Source: Cladocopium goreaui (lineage: Eukaryota; Sar; Dinophyceae; Suessiales; Symbiodiniaceae). Taken from it: a stretch of 64,000 nt of DNA. A program made the position numbers and the translations under genes. Under the pieces are notes generated by a model, which saw only the letters and a list, made by a program, of their open reading frames with translations, was not told where the DNA came from and did no database searches. Where the stretch lies: assembly GCA_947184155.2 (NCBI GenBank), contig CAMXCT020001506.1:1-64000 (forward strand). Direction: 5' to 3'. Shown in pieces: positions 4,451-47,862 of the stretch (within the stretch, counting starts at the first letter, position 1; each line of letters opens with the position of its first letter).

Positions 4451-5872
4451 CTAGGTTGCTCTACGCCGTTTGGCCATGCGTTCCGTAAAGGTATCGTAGC
4501 CCGATGTTGGTGCTTGTGTGTTCCATCGGATGGATCTCGTCCCGAAAAGCTCACTTTCGATGTTTCTTTTCCTTCCGGTACGTGGGAGGGGGGAGGGATT
4601 TGTGGCCACGTTGACATCATCGAGAGTCTGTATAAGAGCTTGAGCATCTGCGGCGAGTTCACGTAAACTGAAAAGGGGGGGATCGCATGAATCCAGCTGT
4701 AATTGATGGAGCATTGCCCGTTCTGCTTCATAAATTAACTGTGGAGAAATTTCTTTTGGGAGCCAGAGTCCGTCATGAAGCCAAATTGCTGATGTTACGT
4801 GACACCTTCTCGTTAGTTCCTTGTAGTAAGAGATCATAATGTGTTCTTCATACCATTCAAGAGTTCGAAAAGCAGCACCTCTGACATGAGCAGCATATTG
4901 TGGCCTCCTTAGGGGCAGGTGGTCGTTAACAAGCGCTTGTGTTGCTGATTCAATTTGTAGACTGAGATGATATAGAGCTGGAGGACATGGGATATGGTGT
5001 TCTCTTTCTATTTTGGCACACGCTTCTCTTGCCCCTGCATTCATTACAATTAGCGGATGTCGCTTTACGACAGCAGACCGCTGATTCGGCGATACCAACC
5101 CTAAAAGATCGGTAAGTATTGCTCGAAGATCTACTATGTGTGGGAGGTGGCTGCTGCGAAGGAGTCGTCTCATGATTTCATAGAAAGCGCCGACCATGTC
5201 TACTTCCTGGTGCGTAGTTCCAAATAGTAGTAATCGCACCTTTCGTGGAAGTCTTTGAGCACAGGGACCTCTGCCGTATAGTCGGCCAAGACAGTCTGTT
5301 GCAGATGCCGTATACTCTACTACTCGAGGTTTCGTGAGATTGGCAGTGCCCGCCAGACAGGCCTCTACTTCTTTGATATATTGCTGGTTCGCAGCGTGCA
5401 CAATAAATTTATTTACCAATTCTAGACTTATATTCGGGACCTCAGTAAGTAGACCTCTCTTCCAGTACAACGGCTCCAGACCGCATGGCCAACTGATAAG
5501 GTGCTTCAACAACGATTTCAGTAGCTCGCTAACATTAGCTGGGAAGGCCTGGGCCGCTCTGCTAGCCACACCAGCAAGATAATCTGCGAGTATATTGGCT
5601 TCTCTTGGGCGGTATACCCATTTTCCATAGTCAAAAAACCTTGATTGTTTCCGGCGAATTTGCTGTATAATAGGCTGTAGGTCGATCCTACGAAAGCGTC
5701 CTGCGAAGGCTAGGTGCTGAACGATGGGGAGGATATCCTCTTGTAGATAGGCCTGGTCAACTGCGCAGCTTCTGTGTACCATTTCTTCACACAACAGGTC
5801 TGTTGCGAGGTTAGCTGACACCGCCTCAGCAAAGATATTGTCTGGGCAGCTGGTAATGCAACAGCCCTCCAC
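4451..5872 (-). pseudogene. LINE-1 C-terminus: RNase H plus polymerase-like domain
   Basis: This 473-codon frame starts inside an RNase H fold: the acidic second motif (CPDNIFAEAV) is near residue 10 and the last Asp motif (YRPREANILADYLAG) near residues 86-100. The rest is a separate domain present in LINE-2 too. It has EVDMVGAFYE (near residue 237), a basic stretch with MNAGAREA (near 280), and IWLHDGLW (near 375). The order Asp motif, basic helix with Asn-Ala-Gly, then His-Asp resembles motifs A, B and C of the family A/T7-like polymerase palm; this is inference. The first RNase H motif (QFDGSCHAD) is just upstream in another frame, so a frameshift near 5875-5890 breaks the gene. The end is Arg/Lys rich. 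Confidence 0.7.
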
Positions 5873-5902
5873 TTGAGCAACGTTAGTCCTTCTCGCTGGA
5901 GT

Positions 5903-8860: not shown

Positions 8861-9589
8861 GAGGAGGCCTGCACATGCGAAGCCTGATTTCAATTGACTT
8901 TCCGGCCCCAGAAATGGAACCTGAAAGCGCACATGTGGCATCAGCTGTCTCCGTTCCCTAGCTCCAATGCGGCGATTGCAATGCAGCACCACCCAGGCAA
9001 CATTCACCAATCCGTCGCTACTCCGCGCTACTCCGCTACTCCGTGGTATGTTTCAATTCAATTACCCAATGTAATTGACACGACATCGAAACGATAACGG
9101 AGTAAGAGAGCCTTTCAATACTTCACCTTCCCACATCTTTCCCTAGCAGATTCTTACTCCATCCCGTTTTAAATTAATACTATTAATTAATAACGGGATT
9201 GACTGAAAAGATCATAATTCATGTTCTTTCTGGGCTGAAAACTTCGGAAGGAGTCTAGAGGGGCAAGGGGGGCCCACAAGGGGCAGTAAAGTATTCAATA
9301 CAATCATTCAAATGGAAGCCGGCCACCTGCGCGAAAACCCACAAACTAGCAATCACCTATAAGGCTGCAAAAGGCTGATGCGCCTTCTTTTAGCAGCAAA
9401 CAATCAAGCCACCAGACGAAACGAAATAATATAAAGCTACCTTCAACTGGGTTCAAGCAGCAACCGATATGCACCCCGCTTGCCCCAACAAGAAACAAAA
9501 TCATCTACAAAACAGCTTCCTCCGACGGGCCCAATTCTGGGTCCGGAAAACATTCTCAAAACCGGCTTCGCTCAAAAGGGCCTCCCTAG
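8861..9589. repeat. Direct repeat copy 2 (insert plus LINE edge)
   Basis: Second copy of the segment at 7785-8534, with scattered substitutions and small indels. At its right edge (9589) the shared CTCCCTAG ends and LINE-1 RT coding sequence resumes on the minus strand (ADKCIA at the junction). Its left 150 bp repeat the LINE-1 sequence found at 7785-7934. Confidence 0.7.
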
Positions 9590-12293
9590 CAATACACTTG
9601 TCGGCTCGTGCAAGTATGAGTGTTTTTTGGGAAAGGATAGCCGATAAGATCGCTGCTCGTGCGGTGGGGTATTTTTTTCGTCGGAGAATAACTTCACTTT
9701 CAATCCGCCCAGGCAGGGATTGGACTGAAAAGGGGAGACAGTCAGAGCTAATAGCTTGCCAACAAGCATGCTGGTCAATTTGAAAACCTGCCGACCAGCA
9801 ACATTGATAGCATTTATGGACTCTACTTACCCAGGTAATGTCATGTCCTGGTCCTGCAATCGTATTGTCGTCAATGTATCCCTGAACGCTAATGACCCGG
9901 GGGATACGATTCATATAGTGATATATCGGGTCCATTGCCAAACAGAATAGGAACACTGAGAAAGACCTTCCCATGTCAACTCCCACATGCACCGCCCTAG
10001 GCGGCAAAAGTCTGCCTTGAACTTTATGGCGGATGAGCCTTCCAAATAGGATGTATTTGGCATAATTACATACCCATGTCGGTGCGTTGCGCATTCGCAG
10101 GATATGTAAGATCCAATAGGGATTAACCCGCTCAAAGGCTTTCGATAGATCAACTAGGAGCGCAGCCACGGGGGAATTGCTATCCAGTAAGGCTTGTATG
10201 GCATGGACAGCGTGCTGCGGTTCTTTAAAGCAATTCATGACTACTTGCGAGGGATGCATATATGCACAAGTTGCTTTCATGACTACAGCAGCAATGGTGC
10301 CATCAACAAGCCTATCACAAGTATTGGGCATTCCTAAGGGCCTGAAGTAGTCAGCAGTCGGACCTACTTTTGCCTTGGGTATCCAAACCCCTACTTGTAC
10401 AGGTGCAGCTCGTAGGCCTGCTAGCATTTTCATCATTAGCTGATCTAGGACTGGGTAGCTATCTTCAGGGGAGAGCCTCCATGCAGAGTAGGGGATTCCA
10501 TCAGGGCCAGGGGCTGAATCTTTAGTGCCAAGGAGTGTATGGAGAAAGTCCTGTTTCTGGGGAAGTTCAATACTTGGCCACGGCGAGGCAGTCTGGTACT
10601 CTCGTAAAATGGGTTCCCATTCTTGAAGAGAGTCTTGAGGCTTAATAAACCAGAAGTTCCGCGTGTCCAGCATGGCTTCATCCAGCATCTGGGAGGTGGT
10701 GCACTGTTCTCCCTGCTGATTGAGGATCAGCCCATTATAGATAACGCCCTTGGGGCAAATAGATCGTAACCGATTCCAAAACGTAATGTTATTGCCGATA
10801 CCTCTGGCTTGTTGATTTACCTGCTCAAGAGCGGGATATTGCCGAGTCATCGTGATCTGGTCTAGAAAATCACAAATCTGTTTCAACAGATCACTTCGAA
10901 TTGTTATTTTTCCTGGATATAGCTCACTAACCCCGTTAGAAGTAAATATATGGTAAGTGGCAGTCTGAAGTGCATGATATTGTTTTGCAGGTACGTGTAA
11001 CACCTCAGCTCGAATTTTAAGGAATTTCCGCAGAAGTTCATGCTCGGGAATCCGAGGATGATTCGATGGAATAGGTTGTTGTCTCCACCAAGACCAAAGG
11101 GTGGACACAAACTCAACTTCATCTGTTTGGGGTAGTCTTTGGATCCTTCTTATCAGCTCCTGTAGATCGTTAGGAACCATATAGGGGTTAGCCTCGTTCT
11201 TTCCAGGGCAAAACACGTTAGTTGGGATGGTTTGATGGACTGGGTCTTTCATGTCACTTTTGACTCTTGGTCGAACTACAAAGGTCGCGGTGAGTTGGTA
11301 ATGTCCACTGAGGTGATGTCGCCTATTGGCTGCTACCATCACATCTATTTGGGCTGCAGCTATATAATCAGTAGGACATAATACTCTGTCGAGTGCTGAA
11401 CTTCCAGTAGGGCTTTCGAAGGTGTGAAGTTGTGGATGCATGTCGAGAACTTGCGCGTGGACTAATAATTCATTCCAAAGGTCCGGGCAACTGGTATCAA
11501 CCTGGTTAAAGTCTCCTCCCATATAGAGGGGAAAGTCTACTTTACTGGTCTTGACCCAGGCGATTAATTCTTTCAGCTCAACGACCTTAGTTTGTGGATG
11601 TAGATACACTGACAAAAGTCCGATAGTAGAGTATCTGTCTTGGATTACTGCGAGGACAATGCGACCTGGGATGACAACTTCTGTTCGGTCAAGTTTCCAC
11701 CCAGGTGGAATTAGGGCTGCCGCACCACCCGACACTCCACCTCTTTCTGTTAACAATCCTTGGGTGTGTGCAACTTGAATGCCTGGTATGTTATGGTGCA
11801 AGACCTGATGGGTTTCAGCATGCCATCTGGTTTCTTGTAGTAAGACCGGGCCTGTCCGTAGAAGTCGCTTAACTAGTCGCATTTTGGCATCCCCTGCCCT
11901 AGTTGCAAGTGTCCACCCTGATACATTCCACACATGTAATCGTTTGAGCCTGAAAGGAAGATCTTGCCTGATAGCTTTTCGGTATTCGAGAATGCCTCTT
12001 CCTATTTCTTCTACTGCAAGAGAAGGTAATGTTCGGGAGTCACACATAATTTGCTGATAGAAATTATCAGCACTCTGATGGAAAAGTGCGGCAACATGTT
12101 GCAAGGTTAGCTTCCACCATGGTGTTCGGACATGGAGTATATTGGGCAATATTGATAAGTCACGTATCTTTGATAGATATGGCGGGCATTGAGTCCCTGT
12201 TTCGAATAGGTAAGTCGTTTTGACACATCGCGTAAGCATCTTGAGCAGAGTACGGAGCAGAGGAGCAGGCAGGTTCCGCAGAATCATCATCAT
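9590..12293 (-). CDS. LINE-1 APE endonuclease and reverse transcriptase
   Basis: The longest intact LINE-1 frame (900 LINE codons; it runs 30 more codons into the insert, to 9501). Endonuclease, about residues 125-345: VLLQETRW (Glu motif), YMGGDFNQVD (Asp/Asn motif), SALDRVLCPTDYI and LSGHYQL, where the usual Ser-Asp-His is Ser-Gly-His, possibly an inactivating change. Reverse transcriptase, about 560-900: SAPGPDGIPYSAWR, RPLGMPNTCDRL, motif A LLVDLSKAFERVNPYW, the MGRSFSVFLFCLAM region, and motif C GYIDDNT with both Asp. The endonuclease would nick target DNA and the RT would prime there. In the same frame upstream, past one UGA (12309-12311), lies 12309-13478. The 3' end is cut by the insertion at 9589. 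Confidence 0.85.
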
Positions 12294-12308
12294 TCCGAGT
12301 AATAGAAA

Positions 12309-13482: not shown

Positions 13483-14154
13483 TCATCTCTGAGTTGAACT
13501 CCTCGAGCGGCTGCTTGCTCTAAAAACCAGCTTCAGCAAGTCTTGGTATTTAGAATAAACTTCTTGGATACTCGGTAGGTCCTTGTGGTACGGCTGCGCA
13601 TCATTGTTTCCCTCAACCCACTGTTGTAATTGATCATCGGTACCGAGGGCCGCACTGATGAGAGATGGATGAAAACTATTTCCACAAAAGTCTCGAATCA
13701 CTTTATCCGTGAGAAGGGAAGGCCCATGTCTTTCTGTCGTTAAGATACTCTCAAGTCCTGCTAATTTGCGTACTTCTTGGACCGTCAGAATTCTCATTGG
13801 CAGTACAATATTTGGGTTATGAAAGATAGGCACCAGTTGTTCGATGAGTTCATCTTTTTTTTATGTGGTCGCTCTGTCTGTTTGAAGAGTGATAAGGAAA
13901 CTTTTCCATATAGGGAGAAAGTGAGCAGGGATGAAGCTTGCCCATAGCAGATTTGGGACTCTAACTCCCTCAGCCATTTGGATTAACAACATGAAAGATT
14001 TCCTCCCACCAAAAAAGGAATAATCCCATAGAAGTGCACTGGGCTGGTAGCCTGTCCAGGAGAGCTTCAGGATTCCACTGTTTGACAGCCCTCTTGTTCG
14101 GAGTAATGGAGCCAATGGTAAGTTTTCACCATTCAAGGTCACTAATGGGCCCAT
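13483..14154 (-). pseudogene. LINE-1 Dnmt3-like methyltransferase, C-terminal part
   Basis: Two pieces in one frame, separated only by a TAA at 13861-13863 in a poly(A) stretch of the coding strand. The upstream piece has PLAPLLRTRGLSNSG and a Trp/Tyr-rich stretch. The downstream piece contains LTVQEVRKLAGLE and RDFCGNSFHPSLISAAL, which fits C5-methyltransferase motif X (Gly-Asn-Ser followed by an aliphatic helix). It continues the fold begun in 14142-14561 and 14507-15697. The C-terminal tail leads by a frameshift into the frame at 12309-13478. Confidence 0.65.
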
Positions 14155-14561
14155 TCATCGAGAAATGTAAGTGGAACACTGGCAAGTTCCTCTGTGTCCA
14201 TGTGACTCCGTAGAAATACCCTTTTTCGCTGAATGCCATAGTAGGGACTCGTGTCCCAGACCCACCGGTTGGTTGGTTGTTTACTAGGAAGTCCAAGACA
14301 GTATAGAAACATTTGGAAGTGTTCAGACTGCTCAAGACGCTGCATACCTTTAGGTTTGCGGTCAGTTTGTACAACTTGCATGCTTCCAGTATTCTCTGTC
14401 AAGTATCGGATCGATTCAGTTCCAAAGAGCTTCTGAAGATGCAGAATAACAAGGTAAACTATAAAGAAGAGCATACTCCGCTGACCTGTCAGCCCAAGCA
14501 ATCCATTTAAATAACCTGCATAAGTAGATCTTGACAGGGAGATCCTGCAACAACAATCCAC
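14142..14561 (-). pseudogene. LINE-1 Dnmt3-like methyltransferase, motifs VI-VIII
   Basis: A 139-codon frame overlapping the end of the previous piece in another frame. GLTGQRSMLFFIVYLVI corresponds to the segment after motif IV in Dnmt3-type enzymes. YLTENTGSM matches motif VI, with Glu-Asn-Thr in place of the usual Glu-Asn-Val; the catalytic Glu is kept. GIQRKRVFLRS fits motif VIII (Arg-x-Arg). The frameshift linking it to motif IV is near 14510-14560. All residues expected for base flipping and methyl transfer are therefore recognisable but spread over three frames, so the copy is dead. Confidence 0.75.
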
Positions 14562-15697
14562 TTGATTGTAGGGTGCATTGCCTTGGCTTGACGAAGGATC
14601 AGAGAGTCACGGGCAACTAAATCCCAGACATCTTTAACGTAGATGGTAGCAACCCCTTCAATCGTATATCCCCACTGTTGGTCTTCACGCAGCCCTATTT
14701 CAGCAGCAACAAGCCGACGTAAGACAGGATCAATTTCTGCTGCGATGAAAATAGTAGGGGGTTTACCTAGTTTTTTCTTAATGGTGTGATAGACAGATCC
14801 GACTCCATCAAACATCGAGATAACACCAATGTTGGCCGGCGTTCCGTGTGCGATAATCCTAGGTAATCCTTCAGGGTCGATCTCTTCAACTATATCCTCA
14901 TTCTTACCATCTTTAGGGGGTCCATGTCTGGTCGCCTTCGCCTTCTTCTTGCTCGACTTGGTTTTAGCGTTGTGCTTGCAAGAAGGGTGAGAGAGCTGCG
15001 AGGTTCGTGTTCTTTTCTGCTTCCGAGGCGATTTGAGAAAGCCTTTGACAACCTTTAATTGTCTTCTGCGATACTGCGCAACTTCACCACCTCCTGCTGC
15101 TTCAGAAAGTTGCTTTGTCATTAGAATTGCTTTGGGTGATTTGACTGGCAGTATGACAAGCCCACTGATGAGGAGCTTCCCGCTGACATGCTTGTAGTCC
15201 GCAACTCGTATACCATTGTTATGGTCGTACATACTTATCATTCCAGGCTGACTAGTATGCAGGACTATGAGCTGGCTGTCAAAGTCAAGCCTAGTGGTGG
15301 CTATGAGACACTGGATTTCATACTCTCTTTCTTGGAACATAAATTTGTGCCCAAGTGGGAGTCGTTCTTCCTCGAGTTTCGGAAAGGAGCATCCTGGAGG
15401 TACTTTGATTCGAACGATGATCAACGGGCCAAATTTGCCGCACTTCCACTTGGCTTTGGCAGCGTCTAGACATGAACAAGCTTGACACTCTGTCAATTCA
15501 TCAGTATTCCAGATTGGAACTAACGAGTCACAAAGTTCATCTATACCTGTATTAGGCTTGATTGTCGCAGTGAAGGTGTCAATTGGTATTGCGCTAGACC
15601 GTAAGCACGCCTGACATTGTAACACAAATCTTGAGAAAAGAAAACTACGTGTACTCTGACTAAGGTTAGCGCATACAATTGAATATAGTTCATACAC
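14507..15697 (-). pseudogene. LINE-1 USP-like module and methyltransferase motifs I-IV
   Basis: A 396-codon frame with two parts. Residues ~26-180 resemble the second half of a ubiquitin-specific protease: two Cys pairs (CQAC, then CQAC about 65 residues later) spaced like the USP zinc ribbon, a PLIIVRIKVPPG strand where USPs have the LKRF segment, and YEIQCLIATT ... LIVLHTS ... MYDHNNG where USPs have the His box. The Gly-His-Tyr of that box is not present, so the module is dead or misassigned. A basic linker (residues ~215-275, KKKAKA) follows. Then come methyltransferase motif I (FDGVGSVYHTIKKKLG), AAEID and motif IV VAGSPCQDL with the catalytic Pro-Cys. Methyltransferase call strong, USP call moderate. 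Confidence 0.75.
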
Positions 15698-15719
15698 TGC
15701 ATCATTTTGTGTAGTCCCG

Positions 15720-15990
15720 TTGGGGGGAATGGTGCTAAGTGTTGCTAAGGATAGGCAGGCGTCAAAACAAGGGAAAAACCGTGGGTACTTGATGGACCCA
15801 GCTCCACTCTACACCTACTGCTGCAAGGGCTGCTTGTCGAACATGTATACTAACATGTGTTGGGATCCAAGGCCCTCTTATAAGCTTGTGACAATGCGCG
15901 GGTACATCGGAGGGTCGGAGAATATGGCATGGTACAGGGCTTTTCTACGGACAGACAGAAAACTAGATTCAAGTAGCAAGTGACTACTAC
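15720..15990 (-). pseudogene. LINE-1 N-terminal fragment
   Basis: Minus-strand translation gives WIPTHVSIHVRQAALAAVGV (about 15810-15870), then a frameshift and FFPCFDACLSLATLS, which runs directly into the start of the frame at 15697. There is no ATG near, and upstream sequence is full of stops, so the true start of the element is either further upstream and decayed, or truncated here. I do not recognise this part. Confidence 0.4.
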
Positions 15991-17899: not shown

Positions 17900-18396
17900 G
17901 CGTCTTCGTGCATACAACTGCCATCGAATTGGCCTACAATCTGGATCGAGGGTTCGGATGGTGTATCGTCGGGAGGGATTGCTAAGATCAACTCATTAGG
18001 ACTGACGGCTTGAAGAGCTGTAACTGTACAGAAGGAATCAGGCGAGTTGGGGCAGGCTGGTACAATCTTGGCATTAGGGCGGAATGCAGCGACCCGGGCT
18101 TGAGCTGGGGCAATGAGGCTAAGCCATGGATGTCCAAGTGGGAGCACTGCGATAGGCTGATCCGGGGCAATGGATGTAATAGATGTAATAGCTGTGCAAA
18201 CTAGATCGGGAAGTGCTGCAGAGTGGAGAGTAACTGCTTCATTGGCGGCGGTTTGCATGTAGCAGGGATGATTCTGGTTGTTTGCGCCTGCACTCTGGGG
18301 TCTGACGGGAGAGACAGGCTCCGGGAGGAAGCGAGTTGGGATCGCTTGCAGAGCATTGTCATGTGGGTGGGTTAACCATTCAGGGACACTTAGGGG
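17896..18396 (-). pseudogene. LINE-2 linker and start of RNase H
   Basis: The frame 17896-18258 continues upstream without clear stops to about 18390 (PEWLTHPHDNALQAIPTRFL). It matches the LINE-1 linker (PIAVLPLGHPWLSLI, CTVTALQAVS) and ends with QFDGSCMHEDA, the first RNase H Asp motif, then TAA. The LTR of Copia-1 begins at 18397, within this reading frame. Confidence 0.65.
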
Positions 18397-28103: not shown

Positions 28104-28139
28104 CTGAACTCGTTTTTTGGACTTGAGTCGCACAAGTTC

Positions 28140-32905: not shown

Positions 32906-35900
32906 TCACTGCTTGGTAAGCGATCCGTTGTCGCCGCTTTTGAATTCTACCCTCCAAGAAGAAACTGATTGGTGGTTGATAGATAGTGGGGCTTCGGTTA
33001 GTGTTATCTCTGAAAGGAATGTGAGAAACTATAAAATCGTCTCGAGGGAACCATATGTTTCATCTGCAGGGTTCTTTGCTGCGAATGGGAGTCCTGTAAA
33101 GATGTCAGAAAGGGTCAAACTTGAAGTGACTTTGCAAACGGTGAGAAACGGTGAAACGCAAAACACCAGGGTTCTTATTGCATGTTTGGTAGGAGACACC
33201 AAAAGTAACATCCTTTCTACGGGTTCCTTGGTTAAGAATGGATGGGCAATTCAAATGAGCTCTGAAGAGTTTTCCATGAAACATTCCAGTGGACCTGAAT
33301 GTCAACTGATCGAATGGGGTGGTTGTCCTTGGATTTCATGTAAAGGGGTTTCAGGGGTATCACCAATAAGTAGTGGGGAACTCAATGTGGTTCGGTATGG
33401 ACTACAGCCCGATGAGCTTCATCGTGCACGTGGACACATGCCTTACGATCCGAACTGCAAGCATTGCGTTGCTGCGAAATCTGTTGGTCAACACCGACGG
33501 AAGAACCAGGACTCGGAAGGTGGGATCATCATGGAGTTGCATTCAGATTTCTTTTTCATTGGTAAAGAGAAGTTTTTGGTTGTTGCAGATCTATCTTCAC
33601 ACATGTTTGGAGCGTTGTGGATGTCCCCCAACTCTGATGTGAACCATCGTAACTTGTCCTACTGGTTGAAAGAGTTTGGATGTATGGATGGAAATCCTCA
33701 AGGGGTACTCCATGTGTATACCGATGATGAGGTTGCAGTAGGAGCGGTTTTTCAAGATGCGAAGCTGGACAAACCTGTCAAAGTGACTAGAGCTGCGCCT
33801 CAGAGCCCAGAGACGAATGGTTTAGCTGAACGTTGTGTAAGGACTCTTAAGGAGACTCTTCTTGTTTTGAGAATGGATTTGCAAACTAGTGGACTGGACA
33901 TCCAAAGGACTGGTGCCGCTTTGCATGAGTTGGTTTTGTACATCTCTCACATGTCAAACATGTATGTTGGAGTTCATGGAACCACTAAGACTGCTAGAGA
34001 GTTTCTTGAGGGTCGCAAACAGCAAACGCCTGTGACTTCGAGTTTTGGTGCGGTTGTTTTGTGCGAACTTCCAGATTCGGTTAGAGATCAGCGGAAGACT
34101 GAACTTCCACGTTTTATGGAAGGTGCGTATTTACATCCTGCGTTTGGGTCAAAAGCTCATGAATGTATCGTTTCAGTTGATGGTGAATGCAAAAGGATTC
34201 GTCCTAAGTCCATTAAACTCGTGATGCCATTGCGCTGGGAGTTTAGTTTGGTTAGAAGCTTGTTTGTGCAAACTGGGGAGGTGGTTGAACATGCGAGTGC
34301 GAGTCAAGATGACCTAGTTGTGCGAGCGAGCGAGCGACCTCCAGAAACTGAACCAACTTGCCCTAGGAGTGGTCCCCCAAACAGTTGGTTTGAAGAACAT
34401 GGTCTGTATACCCCAAACTGTGGAGCGTGCAAGAACCTTGAACTTGGTCTTGGTCGTTCAGGTAAGTCTCATAGCGCTAGATGCTGTCGTGCGTATGTTG
34501 AATGGTTGAAGGAAGAGCGTGCCAAGTTGGGTGTAGGTCAACCCGTTGCAGGTAGAGCCCAGGTTGAGGAGCGTAGTGGTCCTGTCATTGACAGTCCGGT
34601 GCCATCCCCAAGTACCCCTGGTGATGCAGGTGACGTTGAGGATGTTGTGCCTGTTCCTGGAAGTATCTTCAATGATGAGGAGGTAGTGACTTCTGAACCT
34701 GTGTTTGACGATGCGATGGGTGATGTGGGCCCTTCTGGTTCTGGTGCGCGTGCATCGCGTAAGCGTGGTGTGCCTGAAACTGAAACCGCGGTAGCTTCTG
34801 GTGACACCTCTGTTGGGGCTAGTAGCGACTCTAGAGGGGTTAAACGACCAGCTGAAAACGAAGACATGCCACCTGTCTTGGAGGATGATTCTGAGAGGCC
34901 TAGAGGTGTGAAACGAGGTATTGATGAACCAAACGATGGAATGGAGTGCGTTTTTGATGCTGAAGTTATGGACGGACTTTGGACACATGAGGACTTGTGC
35001 AGCATTGTGACTTATCCATGTTTGGTTGAAGAGAGTTCTGCAGCAAGTATCATGTTTGGGAGTAATCCTCAAAGTGAAGTCATTGACTTTTGTGGGGTGA
35101 AAGCGAAAGTTTGGGTTCCGAGTGAAGCTGTTGATGATAGCACCATGGGTAGCTTGCCACGGGATAAGACGCTTGACGGTATGAAGACTGAAATCCGTAA
35201 TTTGACACGGTGCACAGCTGGTATTCCCCGAAAATATGAGGAAGCTCAAGCGTTTTGCGCGAAACACAACACAAAAGTATTGACATCGCGATGGGTTACG
35301 ACCCATAAAATCATTGACGGACAAGATGGAGTGCGATCTAGGATCGTAGTCAAAGACTTTGCATCAACAAAGGCGAAGAGTAGTGGTGTTTCGTCGCCAA
35401 CGCCATCTACTGAAGGACTGAAAGCAGTACTCGCCCTTGCGGCGCAAGACAAGATGTTTTTAACAGGATTAGATGTCAGCGCCGCGTTCATGCACACTCC
35501 TCTACGTTCGCATTGTAAGTACATGGTCAAGATGCCCTTGAGCCTAACTTGGGAGGATGGGTCTCCGATCTATCTGGAACTAACACGTGCTCTTAATGGT
35601 CTTCGACCAGCGTCAGGGGAGTGGTTACACTATGTAACTTCCATTGTGAAACCTATGAACTTGACTGCTGATGAGAGGGAACCATGTATCTTAGCTGGGC
35701 CTGACGGACTTGTTGTTATTTATGTTGACGACGTTTTGATAGCTAGTCCACATGAGGGTTTTGCCAAGAAGGTCCATGCTCTGTTGAACTCTGTTGTGCC
35801 CACTAAGATAACCGGGAGTGTTCACCCTTCAAAGGGGGGTCAATTGAAGTTTGTGGGTAGAATCATCAAGAGATTGCCTCGTGAACCAAAACTGTTCATT

Positions 35901-36830
35901 TCGGTTGAACCAACGTATTTGGACAGTTCATTTTCGGATTATCAGATTGGGAGCAATTGGAGAACTAAAACAGCTGGTGTTGCAGTGCCGAACATTCGAA
36001 CGACTCTGGAGCAGCCTGGGGAAAGTCCATTGCTGAGCCATGAAGCTCATGCGAAATATCGACGTGCTCTTGGAAAACTGGCTTGGCTCTCGCAAACTCG
36101 AGATGACATTCACATCATGGTATGTATTTTGTCTACAGGTCAAGCAGCTCCAAATGAACGTCATGAAAGGGCTTTGAGACAGGTACTTCGTTGGTTGTTT
36201 CATGATGGCTTGGTTTGTTTAACTTTTCCAAGTGATGGTGAAATAGGTAGTGAAGATTACCTTTTGACTGGGTACTGTGATGCTAGTCATGCCCCAATGC
36301 GGTCGACTAATCGAAAGGGAATTAGTGGAGCTGCAATCATCTTCTGTAACTGTTTGATCAAGAGCTATGCACGTCACCAGACAGCTGTGTCGCTGTCAAC
36401 ATGTGAAAGTGAATTGTTCGGGATTCAGGCAGTTATCCAAGAACTTTTGGGTTTACGTCAATTGGTTTTACGTCTTGTGGAATCATTGGGGGGAATCCAG
36501 AGTAAACTTCCAAAGGGGGTGATTGTAAAGACTGATTCGGCTTCAGCTCGCGACCTGTTGGATGCGAGTGATGTTCCCGGGCGTTCACGCCACACTGAGG
36601 TACGAATCTATTGGGTCCGTGAACAATTGGAATCCCAAAGGGTGGTCATTGTTTGGATGAAGGGTAGTGAAAATCCTAGTGATATGATGACCAAAGTGTT
36701 GGATACCCGGAATTTCAAACGGTATCGTGAATTGTTGGGTTTTGTTGCAGGCGAAGGTATTCTTTCTGTTTCAAAGTTACCAGCCCAGATGATGTGTGAA
36801 ACACCTGAGAGTGAGGAATTGGCCGCACTG
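32905..36830 (+). CDS. pol: Copia-2 Pol: protease, integrase, RT, RNase H
   Basis: The frame is open from 32745 (GTG, so no real start) to 37478. Protease WWLIDSGASVSVIS (about 32970). Integrase HHCC in LHRARGHMPYDPNCKHC (about 33415-33465), Asp (LHSDFFFIG), Asp (VYTDDEVAVG), Glu (ETNGLAERCVRTLKE, about 33810). RT TSRWVTTHKI, motif A TGLDVSAAFMHTPL (about 35465), motif C VVIYVDDVLIA (about 35715). RNase H GYCDASHAPMRST, LSTCESELFGIQ, VKTDSASARDLL and WMKGSENPSDMMTK (about 36265-36690). All catalytic residues are visible, so this frame was selected until recently although the 5' end of the element is broken. A Gly/Ser/Pro-rich, acidic spacer separates integrase and RT. Confidence 0.88.
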
Positions 36831-37478
36831 ATGAAACCAGGTGGAACTGATGGGCTGGTAATCATCGAACTTTGTTGTGATGTTGACTCATCATTACGTA
36901 CTGTTTGTGAAGAATGGGGGATAACATATTTTGGGGTTTCAGAGAAAGCAGAAGAAGCTTCGACCGTGAAATGGCTTCGTGAGCAAGTTGACGAAGAGAG
37001 GAGGCAGGGATCGAAACATGTCCATATGCACGCAAGTTGTCCATGTACTGCTGGGTCACCCATAAGAAATCTTAGTGGGAATGGAAAATATGACTTTCGG
37101 TTTGCAGAGTTGGAAGAAATCGTGAAACGATTGCCAGAGTATGAGAAGATTGCAGATGGAACGTCATTAGAATGGCCAGTGTGCAACAGCTTGTGGAAGT
37201 GTGACGGTGTTGAGAAACGTTTGAAAACGATGAAACTCACACACGAGGGTCTTGTTGCACTTTGCAGAGTGGGATATGTATCCAGCCAGGGTCTTCCCAT
37301 AGGGAAACGATTGAAGTTTGTTTCGAATAAACAGGGTTTCGCAAGTTACATGGCACAATTCAAAGACTGCTTTTGTGCTTCACATGCTCCTTTCAATACA
37401 GTTGATTGGACTCAGACTGGACTGTATAATCGGACCTTAGCCACTAAGATCCTTAAGGGAATTTTGGCTTCAAGGTAG
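36831..37478 (+). CDS. Copia-2 Pol extension: MTase-like domain
   Basis: About 215 in-frame codons beyond RNase H. Landmarks: GLVIIELCCDVDSSLRTVC (motif I-like), ITYFGVSEKAEEAS, HVHMHASCPCTAGSPIRNLS (Pro-Cys motif IV-like, about 37020-37080), SLEWPVCNSLWKC, VGYVSSQGLPIGKRLKF and CFCASHAPFN. Every landmark has a partner in Copia-1 in the same order, although the proteins are far diverged, so the domain is conserved and not read-through of noncoding DNA. The fold assignment to a cytosine-methyltransferase-like Rossmann domain is inference. Confidence 0.65.
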   Translation: MKPGGTDGLVIIELCCDVDSSLRTVCEEWGITYFGVSEKAEEASTVKWLREQVDEERRQGSKHVHMHASCPCTAGSPIRNLSGNGKYDFRFAELEEIVKRLPEYEKIADGTSLEWPVCNSLWKCDGVEKRLKTMKLTHEGLVALCRVGYVSSQGLPIGKRLKFVSNKQGFASYMAQFKDCFCASHAPFNTVDWTQTGLYNRTLATKILKGILASR

Positions 37479-40495: not shown

Positions 40496-40878
40496 GGGAA
40501 TTTCAGCGAGCTGACAGTACTTTCTCTCTAGCCACCCAAACAGGACTATACTAGGTATAGTCCGGTCTGTATACCTAATTCTCTCTTCCTCTACCCTTCC
40601 TTACGCGTCCTCTACACACGCCTGCGCAAACCTGAAAACCAAACAATGAAACCCAAAACAGTTGAAATCCAAACCGTTGAAATCTTTGTTTTTAAGTTTT
40701 AATTTGACAACTGCAATCTTTCAGAAAGAATTGCACATGTTGGGTTGTCATGTCAGAGTATCAAAGATATATCTGAAACTGTTAGATCTGATGACTATTT
40801 GTTTCTGTGTAGCCACTCATGTTTAAGGGTGTGGTGGGAGGGTCGTCGTTCATTTCTTTGCTATGGGACTTTTCCTGT
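40496..40878 (+). repeat. DIRS-1 repeat A1
   Basis: Starts GGGAATTTCAGCG and ends GGGACTTTTCCTGT. Apparently identical to A2 at 48344-48726 (constant offset 7,848). It carries the palindrome-like ACTATACTAGGTATAGT and probably the 5' transcript leader. Confidence 0.92.
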
Positions 40879-41060
40879 GGTAGCAGGGGCATTTTCCTGT
40901 GACCTGGATCACCGGCACCGTTGTGAGAGCCTGACAGCATTTTGGATTAGCCGAAGTTCATTTTGGACTGTTTTTCATGCTGGTGGTTTTCATTTGGAGC
41001 TGGTTGTGTACTTTTGCATTTCAATTCCAGTGTGCATCTTGTTCTGGACTTGATTCAGCA

Positions 41061-43184
41061 ATGAATTTGGACGACGATGAGACTGAGCAGGGATTGCGAC
41101 CGCTCAGAGGTTTTCGAAGACGTTGGCAGGCACCTCAGCCTTCATCTCCTGCTGATTCAGATGTTGTAGGGCTGCATGATCTTGAAGAGGGTCCTTATGA
41201 AGTAAATTCACCTTTGATGGGAGAGAGCGCTTTTGGTTCAGCAGATGTTGGCATGACTTTGGATGATTGGGACTTTCTTGAGTCTTCACCTGTCCACGTT
41301 GAACATGTGTCAAACACTATGAAACGTTTGCTGGAGCCTGAGAGTGATTTTGCAAACCAAGAATGTCGTGTTCGAGTTTTGGACCCAAACAGCAGAGAAC
41401 CGACGTGGAAAGCAGCTGCAACAGCATCTAATTTCAAGAGGATGAAACGTGACCTTGAGAAGTTGCCCTGGGAGGTTGAGGGAACTGCCTTTCGTTTACA
41501 GGACAAATGGCATGGAACTGCGCTGGCCTCGTTTGACTCCTATTTTTCTCCAACATGCATTGGTGCATTTGATGTTTGGGATTCACAGGTTGTTAAGACC
41601 AGGCCTGAAGTGACCCGTGTTGCAGTTGATTTGCCAGTGGTGCCTTTCACCCTCAAGAGGGCCAGACGTGAGCCAGTGGATGAGGATATCAGATGTCAGG
41701 CCCTTATGAAATTTCGTGACATCATTCTCCAGGATCCTTTGAGCACTCAGCTTGGGGCCAGTTTGAGGGGACGTTTGGACCAGGGTACATCTCATGATGA
41801 CATTGACCAGTCATTCAGAGATTGTTTTCGTATGAAAGCATCATCTACTTTGCAGAAGCGCTCAGCATCTCTGGCAAAGCTGTCCAAGTTTTTGAGGGCT
41901 GCAGGACAGTTATACCCACTGCGGCTGTCTGAACCTCAACTATACGCTGCACTTTGCAGTATGCGTGAAGCTGGATCGGGTGCAACTTCTGCACAGCATG
42001 TCATTGAAGCGTTGCATTTTCTTGACAGCACTGCAAAACTGAAGATTGTGGATTTGTCAGATGTTATTTCTGCAAGATGCCGTGGAGTGGCAAGGGATAT
42101 GTATTTGACAAAGAGCCCATTGCAGCAGAAGCAGCCTTTAACTGTTGCACAAGTTTACAAGCTTGAGGGTGCCATGCAATCTTCAGGGACGGTCTTGCGT
42201 TGCATCTTGGGGCAACTCTTGTTTTGCATACATGCCTGTTGTCGGTGGCGAGATGCACAGCGTTTGAAGTCTATTTCGACTGAAACTGGCCAATGTGAAT
42301 CACTTTTGTATGCCGATGCACTGACTTCCAAAACCGCCTTGACTGCAGAGGCGAAAACGAGATTCCTCCCCTATGCCGCGATTGGCACGGGCCTGTCGGC
42401 AGAGGACTGGTCAGCCATGTGGCTTGACGCCAGGCGAGAGGAGGGGTTGACTTTTTCAGAGTTTGTGCTGCCCAGTTTTTCAGAGAAGTATGCTTGCTGG
42501 CTGGATACACCGATGAGCGCTTCTGAAGCGACAGTGTGGCTGCGGGAGTTTCTTGAGGGGTCGGAAAATTTCAGACCTGAGATGCTGGGGTCTCATTCGT
42601 GCAAGACCACGCTCCTCACGTGGGCGGGGAGGAGTGTCAGAGTGGTGTTCACTCCATCAGAACGCCGCCTGCTGGGGCACCATCTTGACCCTAGCATGAA
42701 GAGTGTCTTGTGCTACTCGCGTGAAAGCTATACCAGCCTATACTCCAAGGTGCTTGGCATGTTCCGCCTGATCAGGTCTGGCGACTACAATCCCGACCAA
42801 TCGGCGATTGACAGAGTGGTGCAGATGGCCGAAGAGTCAGGCGAGGTTTATGCAGAGCCCATTCAAGAGACTGAGGGTGCAGACATCCACTCGGATTCAG
42901 AGTCCAGTGTGGCTTCAATGGAGAGCTTGCGCGTCCCGGAAGAGGGAGATGATGAGAGGAACACCCAATGCATTTCACTGTTTCCTGCCTTTCCAGGCGT
43001 ACCTGAGGCATCCATGTTTGTGCATAGGATCTCGGGTCTTGTGCACGTGGCAAACGAGGACGACGTCTTGATTTGTGGCCGACCTACATCGCTCCACTTC
43101 AAACCTTTTTCGAAGGTAGCTGACCGTGAACATTTGGAAAGCTGCCGTCAGTGCCTCAAGTCCTTTCAAAATAGGAAGGCTTGA
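41061..43184 (+). CDS. DIRS-1 tyrosine recombinase (~707 aa)
   Basis: The frame is open from 40977; I prefer the ATG at 41061 because 40977-41060 encodes an unlikely hydrophobic leader. The N-terminal third is acidic, without a recognised domain. The core-binding-like helical part is about residues 220-380. Catalytic motifs: CRWRDAQRL (Arg, about 42246), SHSCKTTLLTW (His 42594, with Lys 42603 where most recombinases have Arg), RLLGHH (42678-42683) and CYSRES (Tyr 42714). The C-terminus has an acidic Ser linker and a His/Cys module (VHRISGLVHVANEDDV ... CRQCLKS) also found in the two downstream recombinases. The enzyme would integrate the circular element DNA. Confidence 0.88.
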   Translation: MNLDDDETEQGLRPLRGFRRRWQAPQPSSPADSDVVGLHDLEEGPYEVNSPLMGESAFGSADVGMTLDDWDFLESSPVHVEHVSNTMKRLLEPESDFANQECRVRVLDPNSREPTWKAAATASNFKRMKRDLEKLPWEVEGTAFRLQDKWHGTALASFDSYFSPTCIGAFDVWDSQVVKTRPEVTRVAVDLPVVPFTLKRARREPVDEDIRCQALMKFRDIILQDPLSTQLGASLRGRLDQGTSHDDIDQSFRDCFRMKASSTLQKRSASLAKLSKFLRAAGQLYPLRLSEPQLYAALCSMREAGSGATSAQHVIEALHFLDSTAKLKIVDLSDVISARCRGVARDMYLTKSPLQQKQPLTVAQVYKLEGAMQSSGTVLRCILGQLLFCIHACCRWRDAQRLKSISTETGQCESLLYADALTSKTALTAEAKTRFLPYAAIGTGLSAEDWSAMWLDARREEGLTFSEFVLPSFSEKYACWLDTPMSASEATVWLREFLEGSENFRPEMLGSHSCKTTLLTWAGRSVRVVFTPSERRLLGHHLDPSMKSVLCYSRESYTSLYSKVLGMFRLIRSGDYNPDQSAIDRVVQMAEESGEVYAEPIQETEGADIHSDSESSVASMESLRVPEEGDDERNTQCISLFPAFPGVPEASMFVHRISGLVHVANEDDVLICGRPTSLHFKPFSKVADREHLESCRQCLKSFQNRKA

Positions 43185-43560
43185 TACCAGTGTGCATGCC
43201 GCGGTGAAAAACAAAATTCACTGATCAGTTGTTGAGTGAGAAGCTGAAAATCACCATGCAATCATGACCGCATGCCAAACCATGTTGTGAGTGCAATCGC
43301 ATCACCAAATCTGATTGGTGGAAAGCTTGTTGTCCAAACTCCAAGAAACTTCGTCTTGCAGTGGGACAAACCTCAAGCTCAGCTAACTGCACTTGAACGT
43401 TGACACTTGACATTTGAGCAGGTTATGCATGGGCGATCAATTCAAAATCAGCTGATACTCACCCAAAAAGTGTTTAAACATTGTCTCGGGTTTTTGTTTT
43501 TGCATGATTTTTGCACTAAACTCGGATGTGACGGAACTTTCAATAACCACGTGTTTGGTC

Positions 43561-44817
43561 ATGATGAATGGTTTACGCTGGTTCCCGATAATCGCGGCGT
43601 TGATGGCTGCGTCAACTCTGGAATCGGAGGCTGCCTTCAAGGAAAGGGCATTGCAAATCGGAATAGAGGAAAGACACGTTGAAAAGTTTGTGGAGAAGAG
43701 ATTTGCAGCGTTTGGCCGCTATGCTTTTGCAGTGGTTTACTCTCCACACCATACAGATGAGGCACCATTGCGCCGATTCCTGACGGATTTGTTGGAAGAA
43801 GAGCCCAGCTTGGATCAACTGTCATGCATGCGGAGGTTGTTCTTTGAGGCGCACACGATGGCGCTGACAGATGCGCGCCAAAGGGTAGAGGCATCGCCAG
43901 ACCCTGGTATGGCGACCAGGAAATTGGCCACAGCCGAACGTGTGGCACGGCAGAAAGAACAGGAGTCGAGGCTTGGAGGATTAGTCTTCACGCCGGAGAC
44001 TACTCCTTCAAACCATCTGGTGGACCTCTTTGTTGAGATGTGTGAGACAGGCGTCCTCTCATACATAAAACCAGAGCAATGTTGCAGCAGGGCCCAAGAA
44101 GTCAGTGCAGTACGCAGGGACCCAACAGTGTCCACAGATGCCCTGGGAATGCTGAAGCTGGGGGCCAAAACGATGGACCCGACATGTGAGGCCAACACTG
44201 AGTTGAAGCTGCGAGCTTGTTGGCAACGCAGAAACCTGGCTATGGATCTGGCTGGATTGGCCAGCTTCGATGTAGTTGAAGGATGGGTCCAATTCCTCTT
44301 CTTGCAGTTGTTGCGGGAGCAATCCCGGGGCTTTGCAAAGATTTCATTGCAGCAGATTTTGGACTGCGATAAACAGTTGTTTACCCTGGCCTCGCATCGA
44401 ACCATGGGGAACTTACAGAAAGGAGCTGATGAGGCAAAACCTTTGGACACCACCATCAACAGCTTGAAGGAGTCCAGCGAGATTTTGCAGTATCTCATGC
44501 CATTACCGGCAACGAGAACCCATGAGGCTCCAGCCCCTTCAGGTAGCCGCCCTGAAAAGTTCCAGAAGACCGACAAGGGTGGCAACAAAGGTGGCAACAA
44601 GGGGTCTGGAAAGACAGGGAGCAACCCGAAGGTACAACTTCCTGAAGGTTGTACCACCCATGATGATGAGCACAAACCTTTGTGCTTTGCATTCCAGAAC
44701 AACAAATGCAAGTTCAAGGGACCGCCTGGGAAGCGTTGTGCCCGTGGGTTCCATAAGTGTTACAAGAAAGGGTGCTACAGGCCCAAGCCTTACTACCTGT
44801 GCACCCATACAGACTGA
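43561..44817 (+). CDS. gag: DIRS-1 Gag-like protein with C-terminal Cys/His fingers
   Basis: The frame is open from 43504; candidate starts are 43504, 43561, 43564 and 43603. The protein is mostly helical (about 300 residues). A Lys/Gly-rich linker (GGNKGGNKGSGKTGSN) follows, then CCCH-type fingers CFAFQNNKCKFKGPPGKRC (about 44690-44745) and HKCYKKGCYRP. Related sequence is at 59726-60742, and the finger alone is at 55680-55950. It likely packages RNA. The stop is UGA at 44815-44817; the same frame then stays open through Pol to 47862, so a Gag-Pol fusion needs only one stop to be read through. Confidence 0.75.
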   Translation: MMNGLRWFPIIAALMAASTLESEAAFKERALQIGIEERHVEKFVEKRFAAFGRYAFAVVYSPHHTDEAPLRRFLTDLLEEEPSLDQLSCMRRLFFEAHTMALTDARQRVEASPDPGMATRKLATAERVARQKEQESRLGGLVFTPETTPSNHLVDLFVEMCETGVLSYIKPEQCCSRAQEVSAVRRDPTVSTDALGMLKLGAKTMDPTCEANTELKLRACWQRRNLAMDLAGLASFDVVEGWVQFLFLQLLREQSRGFAKISLQQILDCDKQLFTLASHRTMGNLQKGADEAKPLDTTINSLKESSEILQYLMPLPATRTHEAPAPSGSRPEKFQKTDKGGNKGGNKGSGKTGSNPKVQLPEGCTTHDDEHKPLCFAFQNNKCKFKGPPGKRCARGFHKCYKKGCYRPKPYYLCTHTD

Positions 44818-47800
44818 CTCACGGAGGAGACAACAGCAGTTTCACAAGCGACAGTTTCACGAGATTCACCTCCCCTATTTGTGGAAATCTTTGCAGGACG
44901 GGGAGCCTTTTCTAAGGCAGCCATACAAGCTGGGCTGCGAGTTGTGAGTGTTGACCATGAAGTGGTACAACCGTTTGCACCCATTGTGACGTTGGATCTG
45001 ACCACTAAAAGTGGGGTTCAGATCATGTGGGCCATTTTGGACTCACCTGGGCTGGCAGCAGTGCATCTAGGCTTGCCCTGCGGGACAAGTAGCAGGGCTA
45101 GGGAGTTACCCTTGCCGAGGGCGTTGAGACTAGCTGGAGTGCCTGAACCTCCACCACTTCGATCGGCAGAGTACCCATTAGGGTTACCAAACCTTAGTGC
45201 CAAGCACCAAGCCCGAGTTGACAGTGCGAATGCCTTGTACAAGCTTGCAGTTGACATAATACTTTGGTGTTATCGGAAAGGTATTGTGATCAGCATAGAG
45301 AACCCAGCTAACAGTTGGTTGTGGGCAGTGCTGGTCAAGGTGGCGCGGGAACACTCAGAAGAGGCAGCACACGCCTTGAATCTTTTGCAGATGATACAGT
45401 TTCATGCATGCTGCCATGGATCAGCCAGGAGAAAGCATACAGGCTGGCTTTCGACAGCGGGTGTCTACGCCGCATTGGAGGCGACATGTCGTAACGATCA
45501 CAGCCATGAACCTTGGGGAGTGCGATGGCAGGCTGGCTCTTGGGTTTTCGATACATCTACAGAAGCCCATTACCCTGCCTTGCTTGCGCAAAGAGCCACA
45601 GAGTGTTTGCTGCGTTTTTGCCATGCTCAAGGGCTGTCGGTGACAAAGCAGTTGAGGTTGCATGACCAGTCGGTCGCAGTGCAGGGTAAGCAATCGAAAA
45701 AGCACCGCCCAATTGTGCCGGAATACCATCGCATTGTCTCTGCAAAAGCTGGTATACCCCAACCTGAGGGGTCAAAGATTCTTCCTCCTCACTTTGCGGG
45801 GGAAGTAGGGCACGAGGAGGAGATTGGGGCTGGCATGGAGAAAGCGAGCAGTGCTGATACAGTCAAGTTTGGTATTTATCATACCCCCAAGCAGTTCCTT
45901 TCCATGGCCAAGAAGGCGAACCACCCTATGGATTCAGTTGACCATTTGGAGGAGGTGACAAAATATGCACTTGATTTCAATTTTCGTTATCCAGAGCATG
46001 TTGTCAAGTTGGAGCGGAGGAAAAACCTGCTTCAGGCAAAACTGTTGAGTGTGAAGCTTGCGGACGAAGAAAGCAGGTTGCATGCGTCTTTGCCGCCTCC
46101 ACTGCAGAAGGTCCTCGAGGGGAAGAAGTTGCTTGTTTGGCAGGCCTTGCTGGAGAAATTTGGGTATGACGACATGGGAGTCGTACCCTTCATGATGGAA
46201 GGGGTGAAACTGGTAGGCCGACATGATGCCCCAGAGTGCTATCCACAGATGTTGAGGCCAGCCACTCTGGTGGCTGAGGATCTTAGTTCCTCCTCTGTCT
46301 GGCGCCGCAAGGCGATTGTTGGCAGGGTAGGCACTTCTGACCCTGCGCATGTGGCTCATTTGGAGGAGACGGCCTTGGAGGAATTGCAACTGGGTTTTCT
46401 TGAAGGGCCGTTTGAGAGTGAGGCCATGGTGACGGCCTACCTGGGGAGAAGCGACTGGTGTGTGGTCCGAAGATTTGTGCTTGTTCAAGGTGCAGAGATG
46501 AAACTGCGCCCCATCGACGATTGCTTGGAGGCTCAAATCAACCATGCATTCACAGTGTCTTCTTATTTGAAGTTACAAGACATTGACTACATTGCTGGCT
46601 TGGCTCTCCGAATAGCTGAGTGCTTGGCTGGGTCGACAGAGGGCCCAGGAGTTGAGCCTTGGGTTGGAAAATGCTTGGATCTTAGCAAGGCATACAAGCA
46701 GCTTGCGGTCCACCCCAGTGACAGACACCTGGCAGTCATTTTCTATCACGACAGTGACGGCCGCCCCAAGTTCTATGTGGCCAACTCCCTTATGTTTGGA
46801 TCAACGGCGGCAGTATACAGTTTCAACAGGGTCTCAAGGAGTTTGTGGTTCCTTTTCAACAAGATGTTGGTCATACCCAGCGGGGTCTTTTTCGATGACT
46901 TCCCCATGTTTTCTCCCAGTGGCCTGGCGAGTGACGCCGACTTTGCCGCCAGCGAGCTGCTGGATCTGTTGGGCTGGAAGCATGCCAAGACTGGCACTAA
47001 GGCTTTTCCGTTTCAACCAAAGTTTCAAGTGCTGGGCTGCGTGTTGGACCTGGGCAAGGTGGACCAGGGTTATTTCTGGCTGGAAAATAAACCAGGACGG
47101 ATCGACAGGTTGGTTGCGCTTCTTCAACAGATTCGTGCAGACGGCCAGATGACCAGACATCAGGGCCAGGTGATCCATGGGCTGATGCGCTATGCCTGTG
47201 GGTTCTTCAGTGGAAAGTTTTTGCAGCAGGTCAGCTCAGAAGTGTTGGCCATTAGCGGAGTTGGGGGTCGCAAAGGCCCGGCTGAAGTTGCGTCGTTTTG
47301 CGACTACGCAGTGGCCATGTTACAGGCGGCAAAACCGAGGTGTATCAATGTCAGCTTTGAGAAGACCCCTGTTTTAATTTTCTCAGATGGCTGCTGGGAA
47401 AAGAACTTTGCAGGCATTGGTGCAGTGGTGCTTGATGCCGCCACAGGGCAAGGCTTTGTTTGCCAGGGATGTGTCCCGGATGTGCTGCTGGACAAGTGGA
47501 AAGTGTTGGTGGGGGATCACCTGATATGCCAGATAGAGCTTTACGTGATGGTGTTGATCAGGTGGCAGTTCAGATCCCTCCTACACAACAGACGTTCCAT
47601 CTGGTGGGTTGACAATGACGCAGCGCGTTACTGTACAATCAAGGGCCAAAGTGCGAGCCCCTCCATGAGGGATTTGGTGCGAGAGTTCTACGCTGTCGAC
47701 GCTGACAGCCCGTCCTACAGCTGGATTGAGAGGGTGCCGAGCCTATCCAATATTTCTGATGGGCCATCTCGTCACAATAGTGCTGAAGCCTTGAAAATCC

Positions 47801-47862
47801 TTGGAATCGATGCGCTAACTGAGTTTCAGCACCCTGAGGAGCTTGTCAGACGTTTGAAATAG
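44818..47862 (+). CDS. pol: DIRS-1 Pol: MTase-like domain, reverse transcriptase, RNase H
   Basis: In frame with Gag after the UGA; no ATG near the start. N-terminal ~220 residues: VEIFAGRGAFSKAAIQAG (SAM motif I-like), HLGLPCGTSSRAR (Pro-Cys motif IV-like, about 45065-45105) and VISIENPANSWLW (Glu-Asn-Pro, about 45285-45325), the landmark order of cytosine methyltransferases. RT: RPIDDCLEAQINHAF, motif A CLDLSKAYKQLAVHP (about 46670), NSLMFGSTAAVYSFNR and motif C GVFFDDFPMFS (about 46885), all DIRS-like. RNase H: LIFSDGCWEKNFAGIGAVV, QIELYVMVLI, WWVDNDAARYC and ERVPSLSNISDGPSRHN (about 47370-47775). No disruptions. Known DIRS elements carry an adenine-type methylase after RNase H; an N-terminal Pro-Cys type is unusual. 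Confidence 0.85.
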   Translation, partial: LTEETTAVSQATVSRDSPPLFVEIFAGRGAFSKAAIQAGLRVVSVDHEVVQPFAPIVTLDLTTKSGVQIMWAILDSPGLAAVHLGLPCGTSSRARELPLPRALRLAGVPEPPPLRSAEYPLGLPNLSAKHQARVDSANALYKLAVDIILWCYRKGIVISIENPANSWLWAVLVKVAREHSEEAAHALNLLQMIQFHACCHGSARRKHTGWLSTAGVYAALEATCRNDHSHEPWGVRWQAGSWVFDTSTEAHYPALLAQRATECLLRFCHAQGLSVTKQLRLHDQSVAVQGKQSKKHRPIVPEYHRIVSAKAGIPQPEGSKILPPHFAGEVGHEEEIGAGMEKASSADTVKFGIYHTPKQFLSMAKKANHPMDSVDHLEEVTKYALDFNFRYPEHVVKLERRKNLLQAKLLSVKLADEESRLHASLPPPLQKVLEGKKLLVWQALLEKFGYDDMGVVPFMMEGVKLVGRHDAPECYPQMLRPATLVAEDLSSSSVWRRKAIVGRVGTSDPAHVAHLEETALEELQLGFLEGPFESEAMVTAYLGRSDWCVVRRFVLVQGAEMKLRPIDDCLEAQINHAFTVSSYLKLQDIDYIAGLALRIAECLAGSTEGPGVEPWVGKCLDLSKAYKQLAVHPSDRHLAVIFYHDSDGRPKFYVANSLMFGSTAAVYSFNRVSRSLWFLFNKMLVIPSGVFFDDFPMFSPSGLASDADFAASELLDLLGWKHAKTGTKAFPFQPKFQVLGCVLDLGKVDQGYFWLENKPGRIDRLVALLQQIRADGQMTRHQGQVIHGLMRYACGFFSGKFLQQVSSEVLAISGVGGRKGPAEVASFCDYAVAMLQAAKPRCINVSFEKTPVLIFSDGCWEKNFAGIGAVVLDAATGQGFVCQGCVPDVLLDKWKVLVGDHLICQIELYVMVLIRWQFRSLLHNRRSIWWVDNDAARYCTIKGQSASPSMRDLVREFYAVDADSPSYSWIERVPSLSNISDGPSRHNSAEALKILGIDALTEFQHPEELVRRLK

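Follow-up and report, generated by a model that had tools for sequence, protein, structure and literature searches.

A divergent C5-methyltransferase-fold domain family probably shared by DIRS and Copia retrotransposons, beside a LINE with Dnmt3-like motifs, in a 64-kb dinoflagellate-like DNA window

Retrotransposons of Symbiodinium are described as carriers of DNA methyltransferase (DNMT) domains in the accessible part of a 2018 study (PMC5890265), which places them in open reading frame 1 (ORF1) of long interspersed nuclear elements (LINEs) and in two DIRS-Dnmt3 types, whose domains give CG methylation in yeast. Copia, more abundant in Symbiodinium genomes than any other retrotransposon, is stated there to lack any DNMT domain, Gypsy is reported for DNMT, and the searches relied on the Pfam family PF00145. 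The same text argues that retrotransposition does not need a DNMT, since elements lacking it (Copia and those DIRS with no DNMT) spread too. In classic DIRS elements a methyltransferase lies after RNase H (PMC3266345, in the portion available) and is of adenine type (PMC5890265). A passing mention of some DNMT3 in 'LTR Copia and DIRS', where LTR stands for long terminal repeat, appears in the available text of PMC12344493 and cites the 2018 study, which itself names Gypsy. No Copia case was found in the accessible parts of PMC6338049 and PMC11453091, and a literature search, with subscription papers and preprints outside its reach, brought up no dinoflagellate Copia with a reported methyltransferase domain. 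Here we report the analysis of a 64-kb window (contig C1506:1-64000, the whole stretch of DNA studied) in which three retrotransposon classes, LINE, Copia and DIRS, each carry a C5-methyltransferase-like domain, placed differently in each element, as an initial annotation had proposed.

That annotation called the classes unrelated and took the methyltransferases to stem from several separate captures; our comparisons point instead to two domain lineages. The first would be the LINE ORF1, of the published SymbioLINE-Dnmt layout. The second would be a divergent family of C5-methyltransferase fold, marked by conservation of a Cys/Cys/His set and by a very short target-recognition region; DIRS Pol has it at its N-terminus, Copia Pol a more derived version at its C-terminus. 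We consider this explanation likely, including a probably active DIRS enzyme and a Copia domain that binds nucleic acid or performs altered chemistry; the same joint judgement covers the proposal that the Copia and DIRS domains form one family.

The DIRS domain occupies the first ~290 residues of Pol (Pol residues 10-300). The motifs VEIFAGRGAFS, LPCGTSSRAR and ENPANSWLW, already pointed out in the initial annotation, are present within 44881-45324, and motif I is followed by PC (IV) and then ENx (VI); the motif names (I, II, III, IV, VI, VIII and X) and residue roles given for the DIRS and Copia domains follow those of C5 methyltransferases. A protein search with the N-terminal part of DIRS Pol gave 101 relatives at E<=1e-3 among 2632 candidates. 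Among 48 representatives of the 101 with less than 70% identity, only rows filled in 150 columns or more being counted, E161, N162, P163, T90 and S92 are each present in 48/48, P87 and C88 in 46/48 each, and E23 and G27 in 35/35. The acids D60 (47/47) and D46 (43/46) are similarly retained, as are R204 (46/47), K206 (44/47), T208 (43/47), C198 (47/47), C224 and H230 (46/46), H228 (43/46) and Y252 (45/45). The target-recognition region, from the VIII-like to the X-like motif, is very short. The structure prediction suggested as a check gave a C5-methyltransferase fold for the DIRS domain, as a predicted model, with ~9-19% identity to C5 cytosine methyltransferases in structural alignments (8% for a few viral rows).

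In Copia-1 and Copia-2, the annotated signatures ELAC...PCTGGSP (26431-26667) and ELCC...PCTAGSP (36867-37061) were each confirmed within an open polyprotein. The two C-terminal domains are 29% identical (E 2e-23), compared with 33% for the aligned rest of Pol, and the domain has therefore probably travelled with Copia Pol since the common ancestor of the two elements. In the genome searched (1.17 Gb, 6202 contigs), the Copia-2 domain gave 150 scored matches from 1803 first-look candidates, falling in subfamilies at ~100, 92, 86, 47, 36 and 35%, and the Copia-1 domain gave 148 from 2453 candidates, 45 of which round to 100%, the window copy among them; both counts include some pieces of a single copy. 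The domain is under selection, with dN/dS of 0.073-0.253 in 12 within-subfamily pairs (Nei-Gojobori; pairs overlap), six between-subfamily pairs being left out because synonymous sites were saturated. The 101 DIRS relatives with the near-invariant motifs, and for Copia the similarity of the two domains and the genomic matches, place the DIRS and Copia signals beyond chance.

Profile comparison between Copia (12 rows) and DIRS (35 rows) gave 89.1 and 94.0%, depending on direction, with scores of 47.6 and 56.0 over 192-195 columns, against 12.5 for a reversed profile and 24.3 for the best of 30 shuffles; the similarity is collinear over the full length of the domain. Adding three Copia rows raised the values to 93.2 and 95.2%. 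When Copia Pol was cut into 14 slices, the C-terminal slice alone matched the DIRS domain (77.9%; others <=2.6%), and of eight slices of DIRS Pol the first alone matched the Copia domain (85.7%; others <=0.5%). The residue-level register was examined with 15 Copia rows in three alignments. Residues identical in 15/15 rows stand at DIRS E23, H83, P87, C88, E161, W169, C198, K206, C224 (this correspondence in 2/3 alignments), H230 and Y252, and P163 falls on P in 14/15; N162, R204, T208 and H228 are not conserved. A Cys/Cys/His set is common to both forms (DIRS C198, C224, H230; Copia C142, C177, H182).

Several results weigh against this reading. Neither domain gave a significant match, or one over the cut-off, in Pfam, NCBIfam or PHROG, and PDB sequence searches with them returned nothing significant. 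None of 12 DIRS members matched PF00145; one relative, P0105, alone reached it at E 0.067, below the cut-off. A 12-row DIRS profile searched against the PDB met only an aminotransferase (E 0.38) and the methyltransferase 7zgt_A (E 0.77), both insignificant, and the Foldseek TM-scores of the DIRS model are low (0.30-0.41 by query). In the Copia rows, the place of the motif II acid D46 holds S, H, T or V in 15/15 in all three alignments; that of the motif I glycine G27 holds D, S or G. At the place of the motif III acid D60, two alignments have an acidic residue in 10/15 rows, whereas the remaining one has a gap. R204 is replaced by I or V, and H228 by A, D, K or Q. Apart from these results, scans of viral contigs and of genome contigs confirmed no relative, and P0105 had no tblastn match in phages.

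The Copia domain could instead be unrelated to the DIRS domain and resemble it only in short Cys/Glu motifs. Its structure model was built on five sequences, since protein searches yielded one relative of the Copia-2 domain and two of the Copia-1 domain, and is of low confidence (pLDDT 57.3, pTM 0.59). The fold matches that rank highest for it are to dehydrogenases and aminotransferases, other Rossmann-like folds, with no methyltransferase among the matches listed. Direct profile comparison of Copia with C5 proteins is noise, and the smaller DIRS set (12 rows) gives only 38%. For these reasons Copia is assigned to the C5 fold by way of DIRS. Coincidental resemblance is nonetheless unlikely in our judgement, given the collinear alignment, whose score rises with added rows, the single matching slice on each side and the eleven invariant residues in register. 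Three independent methyltransferase captures we regard as more improbable still: the element classes and polyprotein positions differ, and Copia and DIRS could each have acquired a related gene, as the unrooted tree would allow, but the DIRS-Copia homology argues against it, as does the tree, with the nine Copia rows all falling to the same side of a branch (support 100). This clustering fits one old gain of the domain in Copia. The Copia group sits on a branch of length 3.8, and its placement among DIRS rows is supported at only 50-69%; we therefore claim no direction of transfer.

The analysis demonstrates the motifs, the DIRS model fold, the profile homology, the selection on Copia and the positions in Pol; what we say of activity, substrate and benefit is inferred. 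DIRS keeps motif I, C88 (the catalytic-type Cys), the ENP glutamate E161 and both acids, D46 and D60, and the domain is for this reason most likely an active C5 methyltransferase. It lies between Gag and the reverse transcriptase, directly after an in-frame TGA, and would thus be present in the particle during cDNA synthesis, where it would modify cDNA or RNA of its own element ahead of integration. Copia keeps the Cys, Glu and Lys and has mostly lost the motif I glycine; because the motif II acid is gone and the motif VIII Arg is not kept, methyltransferase activity is doubtful, and the domain there most likely binds nucleic acid or performs altered chemistry. A family devoid of catalytic activity throughout, with the domain binding RNA or cDNA as part of Gag-Pol, would agree with the Cys/Cys/His set in both forms, the missing motif II acid of Copia and the short VIII-like to X-like interval. 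Binding alone, however, would not require the near-invariance of DIRS residues that we presume to be catalytic or to bind S-adenosylmethionine, and we hold a dead family to be rather improbable, if less so than an unrelated Copia domain. More speculatively, Copia may ancestrally have had a C5-methyltransferase-fold domain that lost the motif II acid and was repurposed and that belongs, with the DIRS enzyme, to one family moved between retrotransposon classes, a scenario we put forward tentatively, as somewhat short of an even chance. With its nucleophile-type Cys, ExP Glu and metal-type Cys/Cys/His set, such a domain may flip or bind modified pyrimidines; 5-hydroxymethyluracil is also present in dinoflagellate DNA, according to the available part of PMC11071213.

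For the self-methylation of new cDNA copies that the initial annotation suggested, the observed/expected CpG ratio shows no clear signature: it is 0.58-0.71 in the four domain-carrying elements and 0.68-0.81 in four other stretches, slightly lower on average but overlapping, without clear depletion, and is lowest (0.53) in a second DIRS-like element for which no domain was found in the window.

The Dnmt3-like motifs reported for the LINE are present on the minus strand: motif I, GSPCQ, ENT, QRKR and GNSFHP span ~14830 to 13660. They are spread over three reading frames, so the ORF1 of this copy is broken, and its pieces, searched singly, gave no significant match in any search; the motif I-IV piece met DNMT3C at E 2, ranked after an unrelated row at E 1.5. 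Of four pieces, three have their best alignment to the C5 profile at motif IV (P 0.013), motif VIII (P 0.042) and motif X (P 0.004), which is the correct order, and no such alignment to that profile was obtained for the fourth piece or the N-terminal half of ORF1. Against the DIRS profile, too, the VI-VIII piece scores P 0.041, each LINE piece being weak alone. The motifs, identified by eye, lie in the ORF upstream of the reverse transcriptase ORF on the minus strand, and the methyltransferase identity, weak for single pieces, is suggested by motif order and the published element layout, as far as PMC5890265 is accessible.

The coordinates of the main elements are collected in the table.

Table. 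Retrotransposon features of the 64-kb window
Feature	Position	Strand	Basis or remark
LINE ORF2	9501..12308	-	reverse transcriptase, RVT_1 E 3.5e-10; endonuclease part by eye
LINE ORF1 with Dnmt3-like motifs	13483..15808	-	three frames; motifs by eye
LINE ORF1 piece, I + GSPCQ (IV)	14507-15808	-	
LINE ORF1 piece, ENT (VI) + QRKR (VIII)	14142-14606	-	
LINE ORF1 piece, GNSFHP (X)	13483-13860	-	
Copia-1	18393..28696	+	LTRs 552 bp at 18393-18944 and 28145-28696, 99.5% identical; RVT_2 E 2.5e-15
Copia-1 C-terminal domain	26404..27102	+	
Copia-1 domain motifs	ELACSKAS 26431, PCTGGSP 26647, SFELPNSNRYW 26788, HACAMG 26878, CACDFHA 26989, SEKYSRKFA 27037	+	
Copia-2 Pol polyprotein	32739..37478	+	RVT_2 E 6.4e-17
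Copia-2 C-terminal domain	36840..37475	+	
Copia-2 domain motifs	ELCCDVDS 36867, PCTAGSP 37041, SLEWPVCNSLW 37164, ALCRVG 37257, CFCASHA 37368, TGLYNRTLA 37416	+	
DIRS-type retrotransposon	40496..49348	+	repeats A - coding - B - A - B
DIRS repeats	A 40496-40878, B 47888-48344, A 48344-48726, B 48892-49348	+	self-BLAST
DIRS ORF read as tyrosine recombinase	40935..43184	+	by eye only
DIRS Gag-like ORF	43456..44817	+	ends in TGA, frame shared with Pol
DIRS Pol	44818..47862	+	methyltransferase-like domain, then reverse transcriptase, then RNase H (RNase H by eye)
DIRS C5-methyltransferase-fold domain	44845..45717	+	motifs, conservation, predicted model
EIFAGRG (I)	44884-44904	+	motif name presumed
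VDHE (II)	44950-44961	+	motif name presumed
LDLT (III)	44992-45003	+	motif name presumed
PCGTSSRAR (IV)	45076-45102	+	motif name presumed
ENPANSWLW (VI)	45298-45324	+	motif name presumed
CCHGSARRKHT (VIII-like)	45409-45441	+	motif name presumed
CRNDHSH	45487-45507	+	
TSTEAHYP (X-like)	45553-45576	+	motif name presumed

Only two of the 101 DIRS Pol relatives carry an organism name (P0083 and P0085), both from the dinoflagellate Symbiodinium sp. CCMP2592; since the element types are also as described from Symbiodinium in the accessible part of PMC5890265, the window genome is dinoflagellate-like. The A/A and B/B repeat pairs of the DIRS element are each 100% identical by self-BLAST. Its recombinase-like ORF had no Pfam match at E<=0.5 and its Gag-like ORF had none; Pol residues 617-701 match RVT_1 at E 0.0066, below Pfam's cut-off. 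Gag and Pol share one frame split by a single TGA (44815-44817), with no ATG ahead of the methyltransferase-like domain, and in P0083 Gag and Pol lie within one ORF; the TGA is a candidate for stop-codon readthrough. The second DIRS-like element (56998-62818) consists of a recombinase-like ORF, a Gag-like ORF matching the P0083 Gag, and another recombinase-like ORF (both recombinases by eye). Within the window neither Pol nor a methyltransferase domain was found for it; the sole Pol trace, at 54189-54500, matches the C-terminus of Pol.

In Copia-1, RNase H and the C-terminal domain are separated by a ~560-residue proline-rich stretch with an additional CCHC zinc knuckle (25339-25380); this stretch has no counterpart in Copia-2, for which self-BLAST found no LTR pair around Pol within the window. 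At the LINE 3' end, a direct repeat of ~750 bp (7782-8534 and 8858-9589) is 93.5% identical, its copy at 7782-8534 also containing a short piece of the ORF2 C-terminus. The minus-strand ORF sets 4451-5902 and 16565-17743, alike by eye (LLLFG..H.EVD, WLHDG), may represent a further mobile-element type. The former, with which the initial annotation opened its methyltransferase span, has no methyltransferase match and none in Pfam over the cut-off.

As far as PMC5890265 is accessible, the LINE type is already published, and the Copia part is the surprising one. Copia being reported as DNMT-free, elements used as methyltransferase-free comparisons may carry such a domain. If they hold a methyltransferase-fold domain invisible to Pfam, the 2018 comparison of elements with and without DNMT changes, and what such domains do in retrotransposition could then be tested in the genome's commonest elements.

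Compared with the described systems, in each case by the accessible text of the sources, the window LINE resembles SymbioLINE-Dnmt in layout, with DNMT motifs upstream of the reverse transcriptase ORF, and differs in being broken over three frames (PMC5890265). The window DIRS shares with SymbioDIRS-Dnmt3 the A-coding-B-A-B repeat arrangement and a Pol ORF in which a domain of cytosine-methyltransferase type accompanies the reverse transcriptase; by description, however, the SymbioDIRS-Dnmt3 domain is detected by PF00145 and clusters with eukaryotic Dnmt3, whereas ours is not of this PF00145-detectable Dnmt3 type and shows PCGT, ENP..S..W and the Cys/Cys/His set (PMC5890265). Like classic DIRS-1 it places a methyltransferase-type domain in a DIRS Pol, but at the other end, not after RNase H, and with a C5-type fold and motifs (PMC3266345, PMC5890265). 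With M.HhaI, DNMT3A/B and short viral cytosine methylases the DIRS domain has in common the model fold, the motif order and the Cys and Glu; the DIRS and Copia domain family stands apart from these C5 cytosine methyltransferases in its low identity, very short VIII-like to X-like region and Cys/Cys/His set, and the Copia form also in lacking the motif II acid.

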